DNA of 64,000 nucleotides from Sulfurimonas sp. (GTDB taxonomy: Bacteria > Campylobacterota > Campylobacteria > Campylobacterales > Sulfurimonadaceae): positions 28,409 to 92,408 of the forward strand of contig JADGEZ010000002.1 in NCBI GenBank assembly GCA_016744115.1, read 5' to 3'. The position numbers and the translations under genes were made by a program. Below the pieces are notes generated by a model that searched no databases, had not been told where the DNA came from, and saw nothing but the letters and a program-made list of their open reading frames with translations. Positions 55,113-64,000 of the stretch are shown piece by piece. The stretch's first letter is position 1, and the number at the start of each line of letters is the position of its first letter.

Positions 55113-55541
55113 ATGTCAAAAAAAAATAATGAAATATCTACAGAAGGTTTAACATTTTTAGATGATGGGGAGGTTCTTTATAATGACTTATATCTTTTAT
55201 CAGAAACAGATGATAAGGGAATAGTTGAATACGCAAGTGACTCATTTTTAAAAATAGCCAATATGCACTTAGAAGATATAGTAGGACAACCGCATAATAT
55301 TGTTCGCCATCCTGAGATGCCACGCACTGCTTTTAAATCACTTTGGGATGATATTCAATCGAAAGGTTTTTGGACAGGTTATGTCAAAAATACTCGTAAA
55401 GGTGGAGGATACTATTGGGTCTATGCAACAGTTCTAAAATCAGTAAATAAAAATGGAAACACAAAGTATGTATCTATTAGAGTCAAACCATCTCGTGAAG
55501 ATATAAAAGCAGCTGAAGCGTTGTACGCTACACTAGACTAG
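55113..55541 (+). CDS. Aer-like PAS-domain sensor protein
   Basis: The 142-residue protein is a single PAS domain without signal or membrane segment. GQPHNIVRHPEMPRTAFKSL and GFWTGYVKNTRKGGGYYWV match the FAD-binding PAS of Aer and of C. jejuni CetB, so it may sense redox or energy state. It has no output domain of its own, so like CetB it probably acts on a separate receptor. The receptor gene starts 18 nt downstream, and it is first in the cluster. Confidence 0.88.
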   Translation: MSKKNNEISTEGLTFLDDGEVLYNDLYLLSETDDKGIVEYASDSFLKIANMHLEDIVGQPHNIVRHPEMPRTAFKSLWDDIQSKGFWTGYVKNTRKGGGYYWVYATVLKSVNKNGNTKYVSIRVKPSREDIKAAEALYATLD

Positions 55542-55559: not shown

Positions 55560-57452
55560 ATGGCATTAATGAAAAAAGGGAACTCAGGATCATCTGTACA
55601 AGCTTTATCTTCTATAGGTGGGGATTCTAAAAGAAGACAAAGAACCTTAGCAAAACAACAACAAATCTCTGAAAGTATTGTTGGTATATCAATGACAATT
55701 TTAGATAATGCACAAGAGAGTGTGTCGGCTATAGAAGAGCTAAAGTCTTCAATGGAACAAATTGCTACAGCTGCTGAAGAAAATTCTGGGGCAAGTGAAC
55801 AAGCCTTGAGTAATGTTAAAAGTATTAATTCAAATATTAGAAGAATGAATTCAACTATAGATACAGTGATAGGTTCTACTATGGCAACGGGTGATAATAT
55901 TATGAACTCTGTTGAAAAGATTAGCTCATCAGTGGCTAGAATGGATGAAGCTGTAGTTGTTGCACAAGAATCATCTAAGAAAAGTGAAGAGTTAAAAGAG
56001 TCTTCTCAAAATATTGGTAACGCGGTCAGTTTTATCGCTAAAATTGCAGATCAGACAAATCTTTTAGCTCTAAATGCTGCCATTGAAGCATCTCGTGCAA
56101 AAGAGCATGGCAAAGGTTTCGCTGTAGTGGCAGATGAAACTCGTGCATTAGCAGGTGAGAGTGAAAAAAATGCTGAATTTATTTCAAAACTTGTCAATAA
56201 AATTCAAGGAAGTATAGATAATATTATTAAAAGCATCGGTGCAACAAATAATATTATTACATCTAATGGCGATAAAGGAAACTTACTAAGCCTAAAAATG
56301 GAAGAGCTTACTAAAATTGCTATTTATTCTGTTGAAGCGGCTAGAAGTGTAAGCTCTTATACAAATAATCTAGGTGACTTCGTTGCAAAAATAAATGATG
56401 GTTCACAAACAATTGCTTCAGATTCTCAAGAGATTGCATTATCAGTTGAAAAAACTTTAAATGGTATTGATATTCAATCAGACGCATTAGCACAAACAGA
56501 AGATGAAATAAAAGACTTATCCACACTTGCAGAAGAGTTAAAATACTCTACAGATTCTATAAAATCTGCTGAGGATATTGCACTTTCAGCTGATACTATT
56601 GGCGGTTCTATGGAAGATATTCAATCCGCTTTAGAAGATGTAACAGATTCCCTTAATAATATAGAATCATCATCTCAAAATACAAATAAGTCAGCATTAA
56701 AAAACAAAGAACTTATAGAAAACGGAATTACAGCAGCTAAAGATATCCATAAACTTATTGAAATAGCTAGAAGAAATTTTGATTTATTAAAAGTTTCCTT
56801 TAATGTTGTTAAGGGAAGCATAGTTGAAATTCGTGAATCATTTAATGAATCTATTTCACAAGGAAATGATGCAGGAAGTGAACTTAGCATTATTGTTAAA
56901 GAAACAAAAAATGTTTATAAAACAGTAGGTAATATTTCTAACTCTATCGTGCAGTTAAATATGCTTGCAATATCAGGATCAATTGAGGCTGCTCGTGCTG
57001 GAGATTTTGGAAAAGGGTTTGCTGTAGTTTCAGCAGATATAAGAAACTTAGCAAAAGACTCAGAACAAAATACCGATAAGATTAATGATATAGTTGAATC
57101 CATGAATTCTGAGATAGATACTGTTAAAAATGATTGGAATAATCTTCTAAGTTCTCAATCAAGTGAACAAAAATCTATAGATAGTCTCATAACTGATATT
57201 ACTCGAATTATTGATATGTTAATTGATTTACTAGATAAATACACAGGGCTTAAAGCTGTAAATGATCAAAATATAGAAGGTCTCAATCAAGTTATGGTTG
57301 GTATTTCTGAAGTACAAAAAGCAGTAGAACTGAGTGCTAGAAATGCAATGGAATCCAGAAAAGCTAGTGAACTTATAATTGAAACTGTTTCTCATATTGG
57401 TGAAGGTGTAGAAGAGTTAGCTGTTATGGCAGATGAACTTCAACAAGGGTAA
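55560..57452 (+). CDS. Soluble methyl-accepting chemotaxis protein with two signalling tips
   Basis: The 630-residue protein has no signal peptide or membrane segment and is almost wholly coiled coil. It contains two receptor tip regions about 300 residues apart. Tip 1 (about 155-205) is canonical: [19 protein letters not shown]. Tip 2 (about 455-505) is diverged: [20 protein letters not shown]. Each has GKGFAVV after it. There is no sensor domain, so the adjacent PAS protein probably supplies input. Vibrio DosM also has two signalling domains and helps build cytoplasmic arrays; that comparison is by layout only. Confidence 0.92.
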
Positions 57453-57457
57453 GAACT

Positions 57458-58822
57458 ATGCAAGTTCAAGAGATATTAATTGTCAAAAATGATAAAGAGA
57501 GTTATGGAATATCTACAAATGATATAAGCCAAATCTCAAGAGTACCATTGTTGATGCCCTTACCTTTAAGACCATTTGGTGTTAGAGGCTTATGTGCAGT
57601 CAGAGGCAATATTGTCACTATGCTTGATATGAATCTTTTACTAAATATGAACGAAGAAGTTGAATATAATAATGATAAATCAAGATTAGTACTCTTAAAT
57701 AATGATCTTGCAACATCCACACTTTTAGTGAGTGAAATATATAATACAGTTGAAGTAGATCGAAAAAACATTGACTATATAAACAAAGCAAATGACCCTA
57801 TAATCGCAATATATAAATATAAAAATGAACTCATACAAGTTGTAGATTTAAAAATTTTATTTAAAAAAATAAAGAAAGTCACAATAGATTCAAAAGAAAT
57901 TGAAAAAGGTAAAATAAAACAAGAACTTGGCAGAGAAGAGGAGTTTAGTCGATTTTTAATTTTCTTGATGCACGATGAAAAATATGCTATAAATATTGAT
58001 TTTTTAAGAGAAATCATTTTAGCTGATACTAACTATACAGATATTTCTGGAAGTTCTAGTGAGGTTTTAGGTTTAATTACTTTGAGAGACGAACTTTTAA
58101 TTGTGATAGATTTGAGAAAACACTATGGTTTTAAAGCTAGTAGACATTATAAAAATCGTATTTTAATAGCTTTTCACGAAGAAAAAAAGATAGGTCTTTT
58201 AGTAGATCAAATACTAGATATTAAAAATTTTTCAAACAATGACATAGAGTATATGCATGATGATTTTAAAGACAATAAACTAGCAGGTGTTATTCATGAT
58301 AAAGATTCATTAATATCATTTTTTGATTCAAGTGTGTTAGAAACTTTGTTTAAAGAAAATGAATCTTATATAGATTATAAGCATGAAATAGATGAAATTG
58401 AAAATGAAAATTTCATCATGGAAGTAATCATTTTTAAACTTGCAGATAAAGAGTATGCTTTTGAAGTTGAAATTGTTGCAGAGATTATAGACATAGTAGA
58501 TTCGACTAAAATAGTGCTTAGTGACGAAGTAATTGATGGTATCATTAATATAAGAGGTCAAGTAGTCGCTATAATATCTTTGTTTAAAAAATTAAATATT
58601 CAAACGCGTATAAATATAGATTCTAAGATAATTATTTGTGAAATAAATGGAATAAAAATAGGATTTATTGTTGATAGTGTAAGTGATATTTTACATGTTA
58701 AAGCAGATGAAGTTAGGGAGCAAGAAGATGCATTATTCTCAAATATACTTTATTTGAATAATGGCAAAAGACTAGTATTATCTATGGATATAGATGTAAT
58801 TATAGCTAAGAAGGATATATAA
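57458..58822 (+). CDS. Triple CheW-domain coupling protein
   Basis: The 454-residue protein consists of three CheW-like domains in tandem (about 1-130, 165-295 and 310-454). Each has the family strand pattern and a turn such as GVRGLCAVRGNIVTMLDM, GLITLRDELLIVIDL or GIINIRGQVVAIISL. CheW links receptors to CheA; three linked copies would join several receptor or kinase partners. It starts 5 nt after the receptor gene and its stop overlaps cheB as TAATG. Confidence 0.9.
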   Translation: MQVQEILIVKNDKESYGISTNDISQISRVPLLMPLPLRPFGVRGLCAVRGNIVTMLDMNLLLNMNEEVEYNNDKSRLVLLNNDLATSTLLVSEIYNTVEVDRKNIDYINKANDPIIAIYKYKNELIQVVDLKILFKKIKKVTIDSKEIEKGKIKQELGREEEFSRFLIFLMHDEKYAINIDFLREIILADTNYTDISGSSSEVLGLITLRDELLIVIDLRKHYGFKASRHYKNRILIAFHEEKKIGLLVDQILDIKNFSNNDIEYMHDDFKDNKLAGVIHDKDSLISFFDSSVLETLFKENESYIDYKHEIDEIENENFIMEVIIFKLADKEYAFEVEIVAEIIDIVDSTKIVLSDEVIDGIINIRGQVVAIISLFKKLNIQTRINIDSKIIICEINGIKIGFIVDSVSDILHVKADEVREQEDALFSNILYLNNGKRLVLSMDIDVIIAKKDI

Positions 58823-59883
58823 TGGCAAAAAAAATTTTAATTGTTGATGATTCAGCACTCGTAAGAAAACAACTCAAAAAGATAATAGAAACATTAGAAT
58901 TTGAAATAGATACAGCTAAAAATGGTCAAGAAGCAGTGGATAAAGCGACATCAATACAGTATGATGTTATTACTATGGATATTAATATGCCAGTAATGGA
59001 TGGTATTGAAGCGGTTAAAAGGATTATGACGGAGAAACCGACAGCGATTTTGATGATTAGTTCTTTAACAACAGAGGATGCAACTATCACGATGGATGCT
59101 TTAGAATTAGGTGCGATTGATTTTATAGCCAAACCTGGTACTATGAATGTGGGTAAACGAGAAAATAGTGACGATATCTTAGAAAAAGTAAAAATTCTTT
59201 CTAAAATACCCTTAAGAAGATTAAAAAGAAAAGCAGTAAAACCTGTCACAAGAGTAAGAAGAAGGACTGAAATCAAAACACAAGAAGAGGTGATCGCTAG
59301 TAGCTTAGATGTAAGAAAAATTGTGCTTATTGGAAGTTCAACTGGTGGACCTGGTTTAATTGAGCAAATTTGTGCATCATTACCTCTTAGCTATAAATAT
59401 CCTGTATGTATAGTTCAGCACATGCCTGAACAGTTTACCGCAGCCTTTGCTAAAAGATTAGATCGTGTTAGTGCTGTAAATGTTCATGAAAGTACTCAAA
59501 ATATGGAATTATTACCAGGAAATGTTTATCTTGCTAAAGGTGGCGTTCATATGAATTTTTCTAAAAAAGTCTCAGGAAAAATAGTTATACGAATGGATAA
59601 AGAAAAAGGTGACAACTTTTTTCAACCATCAGTAAATAACATGATGTTTAGTGCTGTTGAAACTTTTGGAGCTCAAAATCTTGTTGGAGTACTTTTAACA
59701 GGGATAGGTGATGATGGAGCGGATGCAATGGTGCAAATAAAAGAGGGTGGTGGATATACTCTTGGTGAGAGTGAAGAGAGTGCTACTGTATATGGTATGC
59801 CTAAAGTGGCCTATGAAAGCGGTGGTGTTATGGAGCAGTTAGACTTTATGCAGATACTTAAAAAGATAGCAACAATGAAGTAA
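58822..59883 (+). CDS. cheB: Chemotaxis methylesterase CheB
   Basis: The 353-residue protein has a receiver (D53, with Lys in AKPG) and a methylesterase domain with the catalytic triad S173 (GSSTGG), H200 (VQHMPEQF) and D298 (GIGDDGADAM). It removes receptor methyl groups and provides adaptation. All catalytic residues are intact. It overlaps the CheW gene by one base and precedes the HEAT-like gene by 11 nt. Confidence 0.95.
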   Translation: MAKKILIVDDSALVRKQLKKIIETLEFEIDTAKNGQEAVDKATSIQYDVITMDINMPVMDGIEAVKRIMTEKPTAILMISSLTTEDATITMDALELGAIDFIAKPGTMNVGKRENSDDILEKVKILSKIPLRRLKRKAVKPVTRVRRRTEIKTQEEVIASSLDVRKIVLIGSSTGGPGLIEQICASLPLSYKYPVCIVQHMPEQFTAAFAKRLDRVSAVNVHESTQNMELLPGNVYLAKGGVHMNFSKKVSGKIVIRMDKEKGDNFFQPSVNNMMFSAVETFGAQNLVGVLLTGIGDDGADAMVQIKEGGGYTLGESEESATVYGMPKVAYESGGVMEQLDFMQILKKIATMK

Positions 59884-59894
59884 AGGACTTAGTC

Positions 59895-60518
59895 ATGGCA
59901 TTAATTAAAAAACATGTAGCACAAGTGATAGAAGAATTACCAGTATTTGATACGCTTGATGATGCTAAAAATTATTTTAGTTTAAACGAAAGCTCAGATA
60001 AAGCAGATTATGCAGTAGAAGAGATAGCTAGATTTGATGGTGGGGGTAGCTTTTTAGTTTCCTATATTAATAATGAATATGCAGATAAAAAAATATCAAC
60101 GAAAATAGCCTCTGTAATATCAAGTATGAATCCCGATGATGCACCTATTGAAGAAATCATGGATTTACTTAAGTTAAATAATGCATATGCTAGAAGCCTT
60201 GGGATTTCAATTTTGAGAAATTTTGGGGATGCTATGAAATATTACATAGTAAAGTTTTTAATCGGAGATGATAAAGATTTGAGAATTTTTGCTATTAATG
60301 TTTTAGGAGATGTAAATTTCGCACAGTCTAGAGATATGTTAGTAGAGCTTTTAGAAACAGAAGAAGATATAAATGTAGCAATGACGGCGGTGAATTATAT
60401 GGGTGAAATCGGTGAAGTTGAAGATATTGCCTTACTAAAATCATTAAAAACAAAGTTCTCTGGTGACTTTTATGTTGAATTTGCAGTTGATAGTGCAGTT
60501 AAATTGATAAACGGTTAA
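59895..60518 (+). CDS. HEAT-repeat-like protein of the chemosensory operon
   Basis: The 207-residue soluble protein is all-helical with repeats of paired helices (NAYARSLGISILRNFGD; DKDLRIFAINVLGDVN; EEDINVAMTAVNYMGEIG), typical of HEAT scaffolds. It lacks catalytic motifs. Its place between cheB and cheR suggests a binding or adaptor role in the pathway; the partner is unknown. CheR starts 3 nt after its stop. Confidence 0.8.
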   Translation: MALIKKHVAQVIEELPVFDTLDDAKNYFSLNESSDKADYAVEEIARFDGGGSFLVSYINNEYADKKISTKIASVISSMNPDDAPIEEIMDLLKLNNAYARSLGISILRNFGDAMKYYIVKFLIGDDKDLRIFAINVLGDVNFAQSRDMLVELLETEEDINVAMTAVNYMGEIGEVEDIALLKSLKTKFSGDFYVEFAVDSAVKLING

Positions 60519-60521
60519 GTG

Positions 60522-61352
60522 ATGGCACATTTATTATCAGTAGAAAACTTTGCTAAAATTGGTGAGTTTATATATAGAAAAAGTGGTATTTTTTTAGAAA
60601 AAGAAAAGCATTATGATAAATTAGCAAAGTATGTAAATTCTCGTGCTAGAGATTTAGAGATAGATAGTTTTAGAAAGTATTTTTTTAAGCTTCGTTTTGA
60701 TGATGAAGTGGGTGATGAATTTCAAGCTTTAATGAATGCTATCACAGTAAATGAAACTTATTTCTTTAGAGAAAAAGATCAGTTTGAAGTTTTAGTAAAT
60801 GAAATTTTACCAGAATTACATGAGACCATACCAAGCGATAGAACACTTAGAATTTTATCCTCACCATGTTCTACAGGAGAAGAACCTTACTCTATGATAC
60901 TCCATATTGTAGAAGAAGGTGAAGTAGTTCAAAAAAGAGATATAGAAGTAGTCGGTATAGATATAGATTCAACAGTAATTGAGAAAGCTATAGTTGGGCT
61001 TTTTAGTGATAGATCAGTGCATGCGATTCCTAAAGGTATCTTAGCAAAATGGTTTGATAAAAAATCATTAGGTTATCAATTAGGAGAGGATCTCAATGGT
61101 TCAGTTAATTTTCAAGTTGCAAATATTTTTGACAAAGTTCAGATGAGAAAATTAGGAAAATTTGATGTTATATTTTCAAGAAATATGCTTATATATTTTG
61201 ATGATACATCAAGAAAAGAAGTTGCCATGACATTTTATGACATGCTTAATCCAGGAGGTTATGTTTTTTTAGGACATGCAGAATATATGAGTCGAATTGT
61301 TTCTGTTTTTAATGCTAAAAAAGTTAATAATACTCTCATATATCAAAAATAA
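60522..61352 (+). CDS. cheR: Chemotaxis methyltransferase CheR
   Basis: The protein has the CheR N-terminal helices and the SAM-binding domain: ILSSPCSTGEEPYSM, VVGIDIDSTVIEKA, and FDVIFSRNMLIYFD. The motif NETYFFRE is present. It methylates receptor glutamates using SAM. I chose ATG 60522 rather than the GTG three bases earlier, giving 276 residues. No C-terminal pentapeptide-binding or TPR extension is visible. Confidence 0.95.
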   Translation: MAHLLSVENFAKIGEFIYRKSGIFLEKEKHYDKLAKYVNSRARDLEIDSFRKYFFKLRFDDEVGDEFQALMNAITVNETYFFREKDQFEVLVNEILPELHETIPSDRTLRILSSPCSTGEEPYSMILHIVEEGEVVQKRDIEVVGIDIDSTVIEKAIVGLFSDRSVHAIPKGILAKWFDKKSLGYQLGEDLNGSVNFQVANIFDKVQMRKLGKFDVIFSRNMLIYFDDTSRKEVAMTFYDMLNPGGYVFLGHAEYMSRIVSVFNAKKVNNTLIYQK

Positions 61353-61362
61353 GGAAAATAAT

Positions 61363-61737
61363 ATGCCATTAGTAATATTTGTAGACGACAGTGAGACAGC
61401 ATTAGCATCAACAAGAATGGTGACTAATTCAATGCCAATAGAAGTGAAACAATACACACAAGCACAAGTAGCATTAGCGGAGATTAAAGCAGGGATGATA
61501 CCTGATTTAATTATCACAGACCTTAATATGCCAGTGATGAATGGATTAGAGTTTTTACAAGCTTTAAGAGCAGTGCCGTCAACGAGTAGAACACCAACTT
61601 TAATGCTAACTACTGAAACAAAAGCAGAATTAAAACAACAAGGTAAGGTGCTTGGACTAACAGGTTGGATTGTCAAACCTTTTAACCCAGCTCAGTTAAA
61701 ACAAGCAATTACCAGAGTTTTAAGATTACCAGTATAG
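61363..61737 (+). CDS. CheY-like response regulator (first)
   Basis: The 124-residue single receiver has the acidic pair D8-D9, phospho-Asp D53 (ITDLNMPVMNG), Thr83/84 and Lys105 (VKPF), so it should be phosphorylated by CheA. I chose ATG 61363; a longer frame from 61297 would overlap cheR and lacks a ribosome-binding site. AAGGAAA precedes this ATG. It lies between cheR and the CheZ-like gene. Confidence 0.93.
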   Translation: MPLVIFVDDSETALASTRMVTNSMPIEVKQYTQAQVALAEIKAGMIPDLIITDLNMPVMNGLEFLQALRAVPSTSRTPTLMLTTETKAELKQQGKVLGLTGWIVKPFNPAQLKQAITRVLRLPV

Positions 61738-61745
61738 GAAATGAT

Positions 61746-62141
61746 ATGTTAATCTTAGATTCAGTTGATAATTTATTAGAACATATTGAAGAGGTTCAAA
61801 AAGATGTGACACATCTCTCTAGTGAGTCTTTACTTAAAATGTGTGCTTTTATTGAAAATGGCAATATAGAAGTAAATGATGATATTGCAGCAGCTTTACA
61901 GTATCAAGACATCATTACTCAACAATTAAGTGCTACAATTGAAGCAATAAATAGCATGAGAGTAAGTATTAAAAGATTTTCGCATGCCTTTTCGAATGAT
62001 GAAACTTTAGCACAAGATAGCATGAGCAAGTTGCATGATAAATTAAATAAAACTTTAGCAGAGGCTAAAGATAAAAAAAGCAGATTCTCTGGTAAAATAC
62101 TAGATAGTGAAGATGCTGTTGATACGATAGAATTTTTTTAG
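61746..62141 (+). CDS. Small CheZ-like CheY-P phosphatase
   Basis: The 131-residue protein is almost entirely helical. It carries the CheZ active-site pattern: Q54-D55-x3-Q59 within YQDIITQQL, with the Asp-to-Gln spacing of E. coli CheZ (D143, Q147). The C-terminus ends DAVDTIEFF, resembling the CheY-binding tail of CheZ (a VDxLLxxLGF-type end). It is much shorter than E. coli CheZ (214). It lies between two CheY-like genes, exactly the expected substrates. The assignment rests on these two short motifs and on context. Confidence 0.7.
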   Translation: MLILDSVDNLLEHIEEVQKDVTHLSSESLLKMCAFIENGNIEVNDDIAAALQYQDIITQQLSATIEAINSMRVSIKRFSHAFSNDETLAQDSMSKLHDKLNKTLAEAKDKKSRFSGKILDSEDAVDTIEFF

Positions 62142-62150
62142 GAGATTGAT

Positions 62151-62516
62151 ATGGCAACAATAATGGTAGTAGATGATTCTAAGACAGTTAGAAGTTATCA
62201 CAGTTCCATCCTTAAATCTGTTGGGATTGAAGTTTTAGAGGCTGAAAATGGTATGGAAGCACTAGAAAAGAGTTTAGGTGCGGAGATAGATTTATATTTA
62301 GTTGATGTGAACATGCCGGTTATGGATGGATATACTTTTATACAAGATCTTCGAAAACAAGAAAATCATAAAATAGTGCCAATTATCATGATTACAACTC
62401 AAGCTAAAGATGAGGATAAAGAAAATGCTTATAAAGTGGGGGCGAATTTTTTTGAAACTAAGCCTATTAAACCTGATAAGTTACAAGCATATATTGATAT
62501 TTTAGTTAAGAAGTAA
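62151..62516 (+). CDS. CheY-like response regulator (second)
   Basis: The 121-residue receiver has D8-D9, phospho-Asp D52 (VDVNMPVMDG), Thr81/82 and Lys103 (TKPIKP), complete for phosphotransfer. It differs from the first CheY in most surface residues. It begins 9 nt after the CheZ-like gene and ends 10 nt before cheA. One of the two CheY proteins may be the output and the other a phosphate sink; which is which is unknown. Confidence 0.94.
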   Translation: MATIMVVDDSKTVRSYHSSILKSVGIEVLEAENGMEALEKSLGAEIDLYLVDVNMPVMDGYTFIQDLRKQENHKIVPIIMITTQAKDEDKENAYKVGANFFETKPIKPDKLQAYIDILVKK

Positions 62517-62526
62517 GGAAGGTATT

Positions 62527-64000
62527 ATGGATCCGTTATTAGAACAGTTTTTACAAGAAGCAAGAGAAAATTTAGCATTTATTGATCAGAATATTGAAGA
62601 GATTGGTGGTGATGATCCCGAGCTTTTAAATTCTGTATTTCGTGCTGCACATACTCTAAAAGGTGGCAGTGGAATAGTAGGTTTTGAATCTGTAAAAGAA
62701 ATTACCCATCATGCAGAAGATTTACTTGATATGCTTCGTGCTGGAAAGTTGGATTTTCAAGTAAGTATGAAAGAATCTTTGTTTGATGCTTTTGATGAGG
62801 TTATGAACCTTATTGAAGCTGCCGAAGATACTGAAGATATTGTTGATGCTGATGAAGAAACTATTGTAAAGATTGTAAAAAGTTTAAGCTTACAGATGGG
62901 TAAAAATACCTCTGTAGAAACAAAATGGAAAATTCCTTTTATTTTAGCAAGTGATCCATCAATGTTTGTAAATATGCCTTTACAAATATTAAATGGTGTT
63001 GATTGTGTCAAGATACCTTTTATTAATGCTACTTTAGATGAGAATTTTTGTAATCATAGTAACCTTTACGCTGTTTTATTTGATGTAGATGAATCATGTA
63101 TGGTATACGGAAATGATCCAGTCTATGCTTTATCTTTACTTGAAGATAAAGTTTTAGGTGTTTTTTCATGTATGAGTGATAATAATGCTAAATCAGTATT
63201 AAGCGGCACTGAAGATGAGGATGGGTTACTTTTAAAATCAACAATAGTCGCTTATGTTTATGCTAGGTATGAGGAAATTGAAGATTCATTATTTAATTTT
63301 ATTGATGAACTTCAGCTTTTTCCTCTTGATATTGAGACTTTACTTAGTGTTGATGTAGGTGATTACGGACACAATATAGACTCTCTTAAAGAGTTAGTAG
63401 ATATAGCAGATGATTTAGACTTAGTAACTATCGTAGAAGAAGTGAAAAGATCTATGAATTTAATTGGTAAAGGTACATTGCAATATATGCAACTTCAAAG
63501 ATTTTTAGACATTAGGGGTCTCATCGCTGATACTGATACAACTAAACTAGGGAATTTTTTTAATACTTTGTATGATGGAAATGTCTATAAAATGATAAGT
63601 AAAGTAGCAGTAGAGAATATTGAAACTATAGAAGAAAAATCTGTACAAGTAGGCGAAGAAAAAAAAGTTGTCAAAATGGATGAAGTAGGAGTTGTCAAAA
63701 TAGATGAACAAGTAATAGTCTCTCCAGATATTGTAGTAATAAAATCAGATGAATCAACTCAAGCTATTCTTGTAAATATGATGCTTCAACAACTAAAAGC
63801 GATTCAATTTATTGAAAATAAAGAGGATCTTGCTAGAGTAGTTTTTATCATGGAAAATATACGAAAATATTTTTCAAATATGCCAAAAATATTTGCATCA
63901 AAAGAAGATATACAAAGTTTTTTAGAATCTGAATTAGGATCTTTACTACCAAAAATTGAGCTAAAAGAAGAGAATGAAAATATTACTAAAGATACAGAAG
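62527..64000 (+). CDS. cheA: Chemotaxis histidine kinase CheA, N-terminal part (runs off the window)
   Basis: The frame is open from ATG 62527 to the window end, 491 codons. GGAAGG lies before the ATG. The HPt domain (about 1-110) has phospho-His H42 in AAHTLKGGSG. The following 380 residues show no dimerisation or ATPase domain yet, so the P1-P3 interval is much longer than in E. coli CheA. It includes LYAVLFDVDESCMVYGND and a Lys/Glu/Val-rich linker (about 370-400). Kinase and CheW-like domains must lie beyond the window. Confidence 0.9.
   Translation, partial: MDPLLEQFLQEARENLAFIDQNIEEIGGDDPELLNSVFRAAHTLKGGSGIVGFESVKEITHHAEDLLDMLRAGKLDFQVSMKESLFDAFDEVMNLIEAAEDTEDIVDADEETIVKIVKSLSLQMGKNTSVETKWKIPFILASDPSMFVNMPLQILNGVDCVKIPFINATLDENFCNHSNLYAVLFDVDESCMVYGNDPVYALSLLEDKVLGVFSCMSDNNAKSVLSGTEDEDGLLLKSTIVAYVYARYEEIEDSLFNFIDELQLFPLDIETLLSVDVGDYGHNIDSLKELVDIADDLDLVTIVEEVKRSMNLIGKGTLQYMQLQRFLDIRGLIADTDTTKLGNFFNTLYDGNVYKMISKVAVENIETIEEKSVQVGEEKKVVKMDEVGVVKIDEQVIVSPDIVVIKSDESTQAILVNMMLQQLKAIQFIENKEDLARVVFIMENIRKYFSNMPKIFASKEDIQSFLESELGSLLPKIELKEENENITKDTE

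Follow-up and report, generated by a model that had tools for sequence, protein, structure and literature searches.

A putative minimal CheZ-like protein linked to F9-class chemosensory clusters in Sulfurimonas

The enzyme CheZ inactivates CheY, the messenger of chemotaxis. The phosphatases CheC, CheX, and FliY differ from the CheZ type in both fold and motif. Several kinds of chemosensory system are relevant to the locus described here. According to passages of PMC9321776, the F9 class is defined by the presence of DosM together with CheW3, full clusters occur in 64 of 2,781 species, and the arrangement in which cheZ adjoins trhP is that of the F3 class. Passages of PMC7534058 describe F9 arrays as double-layered and purely cytoplasmic, with a function that is still poorly understood, and assign VC1394, from the F9 cluster of Vibrio cholerae, the same topology as McpA. 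The McpA-like receptors of F7 systems are described in parts of PMC7184735 as having a highly conserved C terminus whose role is unclear, with Pseudomonas aeruginosa McpA carrying valine at the second of its last five positions.

The DNA analyzed here (the window) is a stretch of 64,000 nucleotides from a Sulfurimonas sp. genome (contig JADGEZ010000002.1). It contains a genuine open reading frame (ORF) for a protein of 131 amino acids (aa), named CZL (CheZ-like), which is probably a pared-down phosphatase of the CheZ kind that serves the F9-class array (cytoplasmic, with DosM and CheW3) specifically. CZL is free-standing and associated with F9 arrays, and it has a receptor-fused counterpart; judged from sequence, there is a good likelihood that the function is CheZ-like. 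No description of a small F9 CheZ-like protein or of a receptor-CheZ fusion appeared among the papers listed by searches of an open-licence library.

The F9 cluster and the distribution of CZL

The gene for CZL lies in a chemosensory cluster that has both the double-signalling receptor (DosM) and the concatenated triple CheW (CheW3) of the F9 class (Table 1). The genes run in the order receptor, triple CheW, CheB, HEAT protein, CheR, RR1, CZL, RR2, and CheA; the F9 gene order is that of the clusters of Methylosinus, Sphaerotilus, Azospirillum, and Methylobacterium. An initial reading of the DNA by sequence inspection (the sequence-only reading) had placed CZL between two cheY genes, and both flanking genes indeed encode receiver-only proteins, RR1 and RR2 (PF00072; E values, 2e−21 and 3e−27, respectively). 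Outside the window, cheA is followed by genes for a CheW-CZB protein and then a ParA-like ATPase. In locus L080, the product encoded immediately 3′ of the F9 cheA (L080:10670-11431) has a CheW domain fused to a zinc-binding CZB domain.

Table 1. Features of the F9 cluster in the window and related chemoreceptors in other genomes
Feature	Position	Strand	Evidence or remarks
Small protein opening the cluster, PAS-type by eye	55113..55541	+	ORF; homologues in the same place in L101-L103
DosM-type receptor	55560..57452	+	PF00015, six stretches; MCP signalling matches across both halves
CheW3, three CheW domains	57458..58822	+	PF01584, three stretches
cheB	58822..59883	+	Named from sequence; cheB annotated at the same place in four other F9 clusters
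HEAT-repeat protein of F9 clusters	59895..60518	+	Domain search; counterparts in other F9 clusters
cheR	60519..61352	+	Domain search
RR1, receiver-only (CheY-like), proposed CZL partner	61363..61737	+	PF00072; likeness to receptor-tail-linked receivers
CZL, CheZ-like protein	61746..62141	+	131 aa; predicted helices 2-38, 45-84, and 86-114; predicted disordered tail 117-131
Q52-Q60 (QYQDIITQQ) of CZL, with proposed catalytic pair D55 and Q59	61899..61925	+	Q52, D55, Q59, and Q60 in 36/36 relatives; CheZ signature D-x3-Q
C-terminal IEFF of CZL, proposed response-regulator docking peptide	62127..62138	+	IEFF in 28/30, VEFF in 2/30; compare IELF, which ends 3/3 F9-linked receptor tails
RR2, receiver-only (CheY-like), immediately 5′ of cheA	62151..62516	+	PF00072; likeness to pre-CheA receivers
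cheA	62527..64000	+	Coding region incomplete in the window; L080 product, 910 aa
Chemoreceptors with a CheZ-like end beside F9 clusters	L087:14252-15757, L088:11721-13187, L094:7813-9270		QFQD[IV]xRQ, C-terminal IELF

A scan of named genomes recovered 22 loci with a CZL relative, mostly from Sulfurimonas. Among 60 related genomes, 16 had a CZL match (E value of 0.01 or better); the match in one of them (G013, locus L039) was judged by its sequence to be an apparently unrelated exported protein and was counted as chance. An evenly drawn sample of 298 genomes from the phylum yielded matches in 10, of which 7 were convincing (L077, L078, and L079 were set aside as chance, judged from their sequences), and presence in so few genomes marks CZL as an accessory gene. 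The family alignment comprised 30 rows after duplicates (L025, L026, L028, and L032), partial sequences (L021, L024, and L038), and the unrelated L039 were set aside; counts out of 36 are these 30 rows plus L096 to L101, which were added only for those counts.

CheW3 was present in 14 of the 60 relatives sampled, and a CZL match was found in all 14. With the chance match in G013 set aside, a true CZL occurred in 1 (G002) of the 46 CheW3-negative genomes (Fisher's exact test, 9e−13, for 60 genomes that are not independent of each other). The order RR1-CZL-RR2-CheA was identified in all 22 loci that span both flanks. A partial F9 set in G080 (locus L104), with no cheA or receivers recognized within 13 kb, had no CZL. 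The F9 copy in G026, one of the 14 CheW3-positive genomes, lacks D55 and Q59, as CZL is reduced to its C-terminal half. RR1 is absent from the same place, and a single event seems to have removed it along with the catalytic half. The remnant in G026 (L038:1423-1659) has 79 codons and ends in IEFF.

Six more loci (L022 and L095 to L099) carry a CZL member in a different che cluster, 3′ of cheR and cheB. The two that were inspected ORF by ORF (L022 and L099) have the order MCP-CheW-CheV-CheR-CheB-366/367-aa protein-CZL, with CheV named by eye. The 366/367-aa protein lying directly 5′ of CZL in these non-F9 clusters (L022:4851-5954 and L099:7718-8818) contains at most a degenerate receiver and has the C terminus DDLIFF. 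An orphan CZL (L100:7829-8218), with the C terminus SELF, lies apart from che genes and near a pair of genes that by eye are BamA/TamB-like.

Similarity of CZL to CheZ

The sequence-only reading had suggested that this protein may be a minimal CheZ, based on a QD-x3-Q motif in a helix, a VDTIEFF tail, and a length about 60% of that of Escherichia coli CheZ. Each of these features was present as described. Residues Q54-D55-I-I-T-Q59 fall inside a predicted helix (residues 45 to 84), the C terminus is VDTIEFF, and the 131 aa of CZL correspond to 61% of the 214 aa of the E. coli MG1655 protein. The motif and the tail were also invariant across the family: invariant columns of the 30 distinct rows include Q52, D55, Q59, Q60, A107, G116, and E129-F130-F131, all 30 rows end in [IV]EFF, and in the larger set of 36, D55, Q59, and the terminal F were kept throughout while E129 differed in 2. 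A scan for the pattern [FYHNRL][QN]D[ILVM]xxQ covered 1,011 different ORFs, each at least 100 aa long, from all DNA collected up to that point. The pattern was identified in 101, comprising 94 members of the CheZ or CZL family, 3 receptor CheZ-like tails, and 4 apparently chance occurrences; the QD-x3-Q of CZL is thus more than chance.

An ordinary 231-aa epsilon CheZ is also encoded in this genome; its gene is on a different contig and adjoins an apparent U32 peptidase gene, matching the F3 arrangement. As this ordinary CheZ is retained, CZL is an addition and not a replacement. A protein search using the genome's epsilon CheZ identified CheZ in 53 of the 60 relatives. Epsilon CheZ sequences (L002:1495-2190 and L113 to L132) start with MTQEELD and mostly end with DDIEAL, which we take to be FliM-like and possibly CheY-binding peptides at both ends. 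One of these (L115) is a naturally short epsilon CheZ of 155 aa in which both terminal peptides are present, and it provides a precedent for a shortened CheZ.

The CheZ relationship proposed for CZL did not extend to curated models. CZL from the window matched neither PF04344 nor NF041271, its Pfam and NCBIfam matches being weak and none of them to CheZ, and for the 30 CZL members both models were absent from the 25 commonest families among the matches listed. This is weak evidence, because the genome's own CheZ also falls below the PF04344 cut-off (14.6 bits; cut-off, 30.7); with NF041271 it scored 206.8 (cut-off, 350). At the level of profile-profile comparison, similarity to CheZ was identified. 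CZL aligned with 30 epsilon CheZ in register at the D-x3-Q helix, with a score of 32.2 (P value, 2.4e−4; best score of 60 column shuffles, 23.4). Against a joint profile of diverse epsilon CheZ and the receptor tails described below, the score was 41.9 over 44 columns (P value, 5.6e−6), and 47 decoy windows from neighboring families reached at best 18.1. The score against seven beta/gamma CheZ (13.9; P value, 0.25) was not above shuffles (mean, 12.1), yet the alignment was in register. Matches between the CZL and CheZ profiles span only 28 to 44 columns around the motif.

A helical wheel of residues 45 to 84 places D55 at 167 degrees and Q59 at −153 degrees relative to the hydrophobic moment. 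Both residues thus point away from the hydrophobic face, and so do D143 and Q147 of E. coli CheZ (170 and −150 degrees). AlphaFold2 (21 sequences; mean pLDDT, 80) predicted a helical hairpin with D-x3-Q on its second helix, a third helix, and a disordered tail from residue 117 to 131; as monomer models only, these are compatible with a four-helix-bundle homodimer. The disordered tail with its [IV]EFF end is unlike DDLLxSLGF and DDIEALLAQFG in sequence. Fold comparison did not single out CheZ, long helical hairpins giving many equal matches, and fold searches with CZL returned generic helical hairpins with no CheZ among the matches listed. Sequence searches of the PDB with CZL and with the family identified no CheZ; the best family match, to Helicobacter pylori HP1531 (1zke; E value, 0.024) over the N-terminal part, was taken as chance. 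Neither a lack of profile-level similarity nor a buried site or folded-in tail was found, and the in-register profile match, the outward-facing D55 and Q59, and the disordered tail support the suggestion of a minimal CheZ. On the basis of the short profile match and the bridging receptor domain described next, CZL is a probable member of the CheZ family.

CheZ-like ends of chemoreceptors and their receivers

Four F9 clusters on plasmids of alpha- and beta-proteobacteria were examined, from Methylosinus, Sphaerotilus, Methylobacterium, and Azospirillum; a stretch from Deferribacter proved not to be F9. Motif scanning identified no free-standing CZL in the four clusters. A search of the plasmid collection with P0001 returned nothing at an E value of 1. 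In three of them (Methylosinus, Sphaerotilus, and Methylobacterium), a neighboring MCP ends with QFQD[IV]xRQ followed further on by a terminal IELF. The Azospirillum stretch examined had no such receptor tail, and CheC is annotated in its neighborhood.

A profile built from the three receptor tails (three rows only) matched both epsilon CheZ (P value, 1.9e−8) and CZL (P value, 5.1e−5) in profile-profile comparisons. Searches with this profile matched 244 of the 298 Campylobacterota genomes, all 20 loci fetched through the search were epsilon CheZ by sequence, and the sole match in the genome of the window was its CheZ (E value, 8.2e−9). The NCBIfam CheZ model reached residues 364 to 456 of the Methylosinus receptor (E value, 5.8e−5, below cut-off) and had no match at an E value of 0.01 in the Sphaerotilus and Methylobacterium tails. 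The profile matches to CheZ, taken with the NCBIfam match, indicate a CheZ-like domain at the C terminus of these receptors. A search of the PDB with the receptor-tail profile matched only helical stretches that look like chance, viral spike helices among them (best E value, 0.0027), which calls for caution with helical profiles.

The receivers could also be paired between clusters. RR1 shared 36 to 40% identity with receivers beside or in the cluster of the tailed receptors and 26 to 31% with pre-CheA receivers, whereas RR2 shared 40 to 44% with the pre-CheA receivers of other F9 clusters and 30 to 37% with the receptor-tail-linked receivers. RR1-like receivers were located both before and after the MCP in Sphaerotilus, before it in Methylobacterium, and apart from it in Methylosinus. 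As an RR1-like receiver, a CheZ-like domain, and an IE[FL]F end are found in both cases, the set recurs in two architectures. A small protein of 77 to 78 aa is encoded after cheA in alpha- and beta-proteobacterial F9 clusters (L087:4280-4516, L088:11176-11412, and L090:8758-8991), and that of Sphaerotilus is STAS-like (PF13466; E value, 3e−4, below cut-off).

Proposed function and relation to known systems

The mechanism of CheZ D143 and Q147 is the model for the roles of D55 and Q59. CZL would dimerize through a hairpin of two helices, the unit that in CheZ builds a dimeric four-helix bundle. The phosphorylated receiver would first be docked by the flexible IEFF tail. The second helix would then bring D55 and Q59 into the receiver's active site, where Q59 would position the attacking water and D55 would contact the conserved lysine of the receiver. 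RR1 appears the likeliest substrate and RR2 a second candidate, given the position of RR1, its likeness to receptor-tail-linked receivers, and its joint loss with the catalytic half of CZL in G026. If CZL is an off-switch specific to the array and paired with its own receiver, this would mark RR1 as a genuine signalling output that can be assayed directly.

Some of these observations could also be accommodated by a non-catalytic receiver-binding adaptor, in which IEFF tethers or sequesters RR1 at the F9 array and the D-x3-Q helix is only a binding surface. The tail is nearly as invariant as the active-site pair, the G026 remnant retains the tail half without D55 and Q59, and the protein adjoining non-F9 copies has a degenerate receiver at most. 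An adaptor is nevertheless considered unlikely, as D55 and Q59 form the exact CheZ catalytic pair and are invariant, solvent-facing, and placed within a CheZ-like stretch. Less probable again is an unrelated coiled-coil array accessory with an independently evolved QD-x3-Q. The curated CheZ models would agree with this in having no match to CZL, short profile matches come easily to helical proteins, as the chance PDB matches illustrate, and D-x3-Q is found in some histidine kinases too. However, the CZL-CheZ score lies well above those of shuffles and decoys and is in register, CZL is connected to CheZ by way of the receptor-tail domain, and the tail, the receiver neighbor, and D-x3-Q recur jointly in the receptor fusions.

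The aromatic C-terminal residues of CZL, and the presence of cheR and cheB in the same cluster, could further be read as signs of a CheR/CheB tether with a C terminus acting like the receptor pentapeptide. None of the 30 CZL members has the x-[HFYW]-x2-[HFYW] pattern that this would require, and the idea was rejected as highly improbable. The phosphatase reading of CZL was preferred.

A broader and more tentative possibility is that a CheZ-type module is a standard, unrecognised part of F9 systems, free in Campylobacterota and fused to a receptor C terminus in alpha- and beta-proteobacteria, in each case with a matched RR1 and the shared IE[FL]F docking tail. It may also explain the conserved C termini of McpA-like (24H) receptors (for example, P. 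aeruginosa CttP and V. cholerae VCA1088) and of VC1394. The x-I-E-L-F end of the F9 receptor tails fits the form of the McpA C terminus. Outside Campylobacterota, McpA-type receptors were sought in six plasmid records with the receptor-tail profile, and no clear further example emerged (the best match in a Cupriavidus record was its own CheZ, with an E value of 0.107); the link to McpA thus draws on the published papers and on inference. If the proposal holds true, CttP, VCA1088, and VC1394 would act as phosphatases, either in place of or in addition to controlling a kinase. It would be unusual for a receptor to be built with a CheZ domain on its tail, and the question of the McpA-type C terminus, as raised in PMC7184735, would become testable.

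Three points go beyond the sequence-only reading: the cluster is of the F9 class, the genome has a canonical CheZ in addition to CZL, and the CheZ-like end of chemoreceptors is the closest parallel to CZL in function. The role proposed for CZL is like that of CheC, CheX, and FliY, but no such match appeared in the CZL domain search. E. coli CheZ (PF04344) has in common with CZL the D-x3-Q motif at the same wheel position, a similar turn-to-motif spacing (by eye), and an acidic end, but is 214 aa rather than 131 aa long, and the profile similarity is not significant. The epsilon or F3-type CheZ (NF041271; H. pylori and Campylobacter jejuni type) shares the QYQDIxxQ helix soon after the turn and a link to CheY. 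CZL differs from it in having no acidic N-terminal region, MTQEELDALM start, DDIEAL tail, or model-level match, and its gene lies in the F9 cluster, whereas this genome has the gene for its F3 CheZ elsewhere. The receptor tails of Methylosinus, Sphaerotilus, and Methylobacterium share with CZL the F9 cluster, an RR1-like receiver, the motif (QFQD[IV]xRQ in the tails), and a matching end (IELF versus IEFF); in these three the domain is fused to an MCP, whereas CZL is free-standing.
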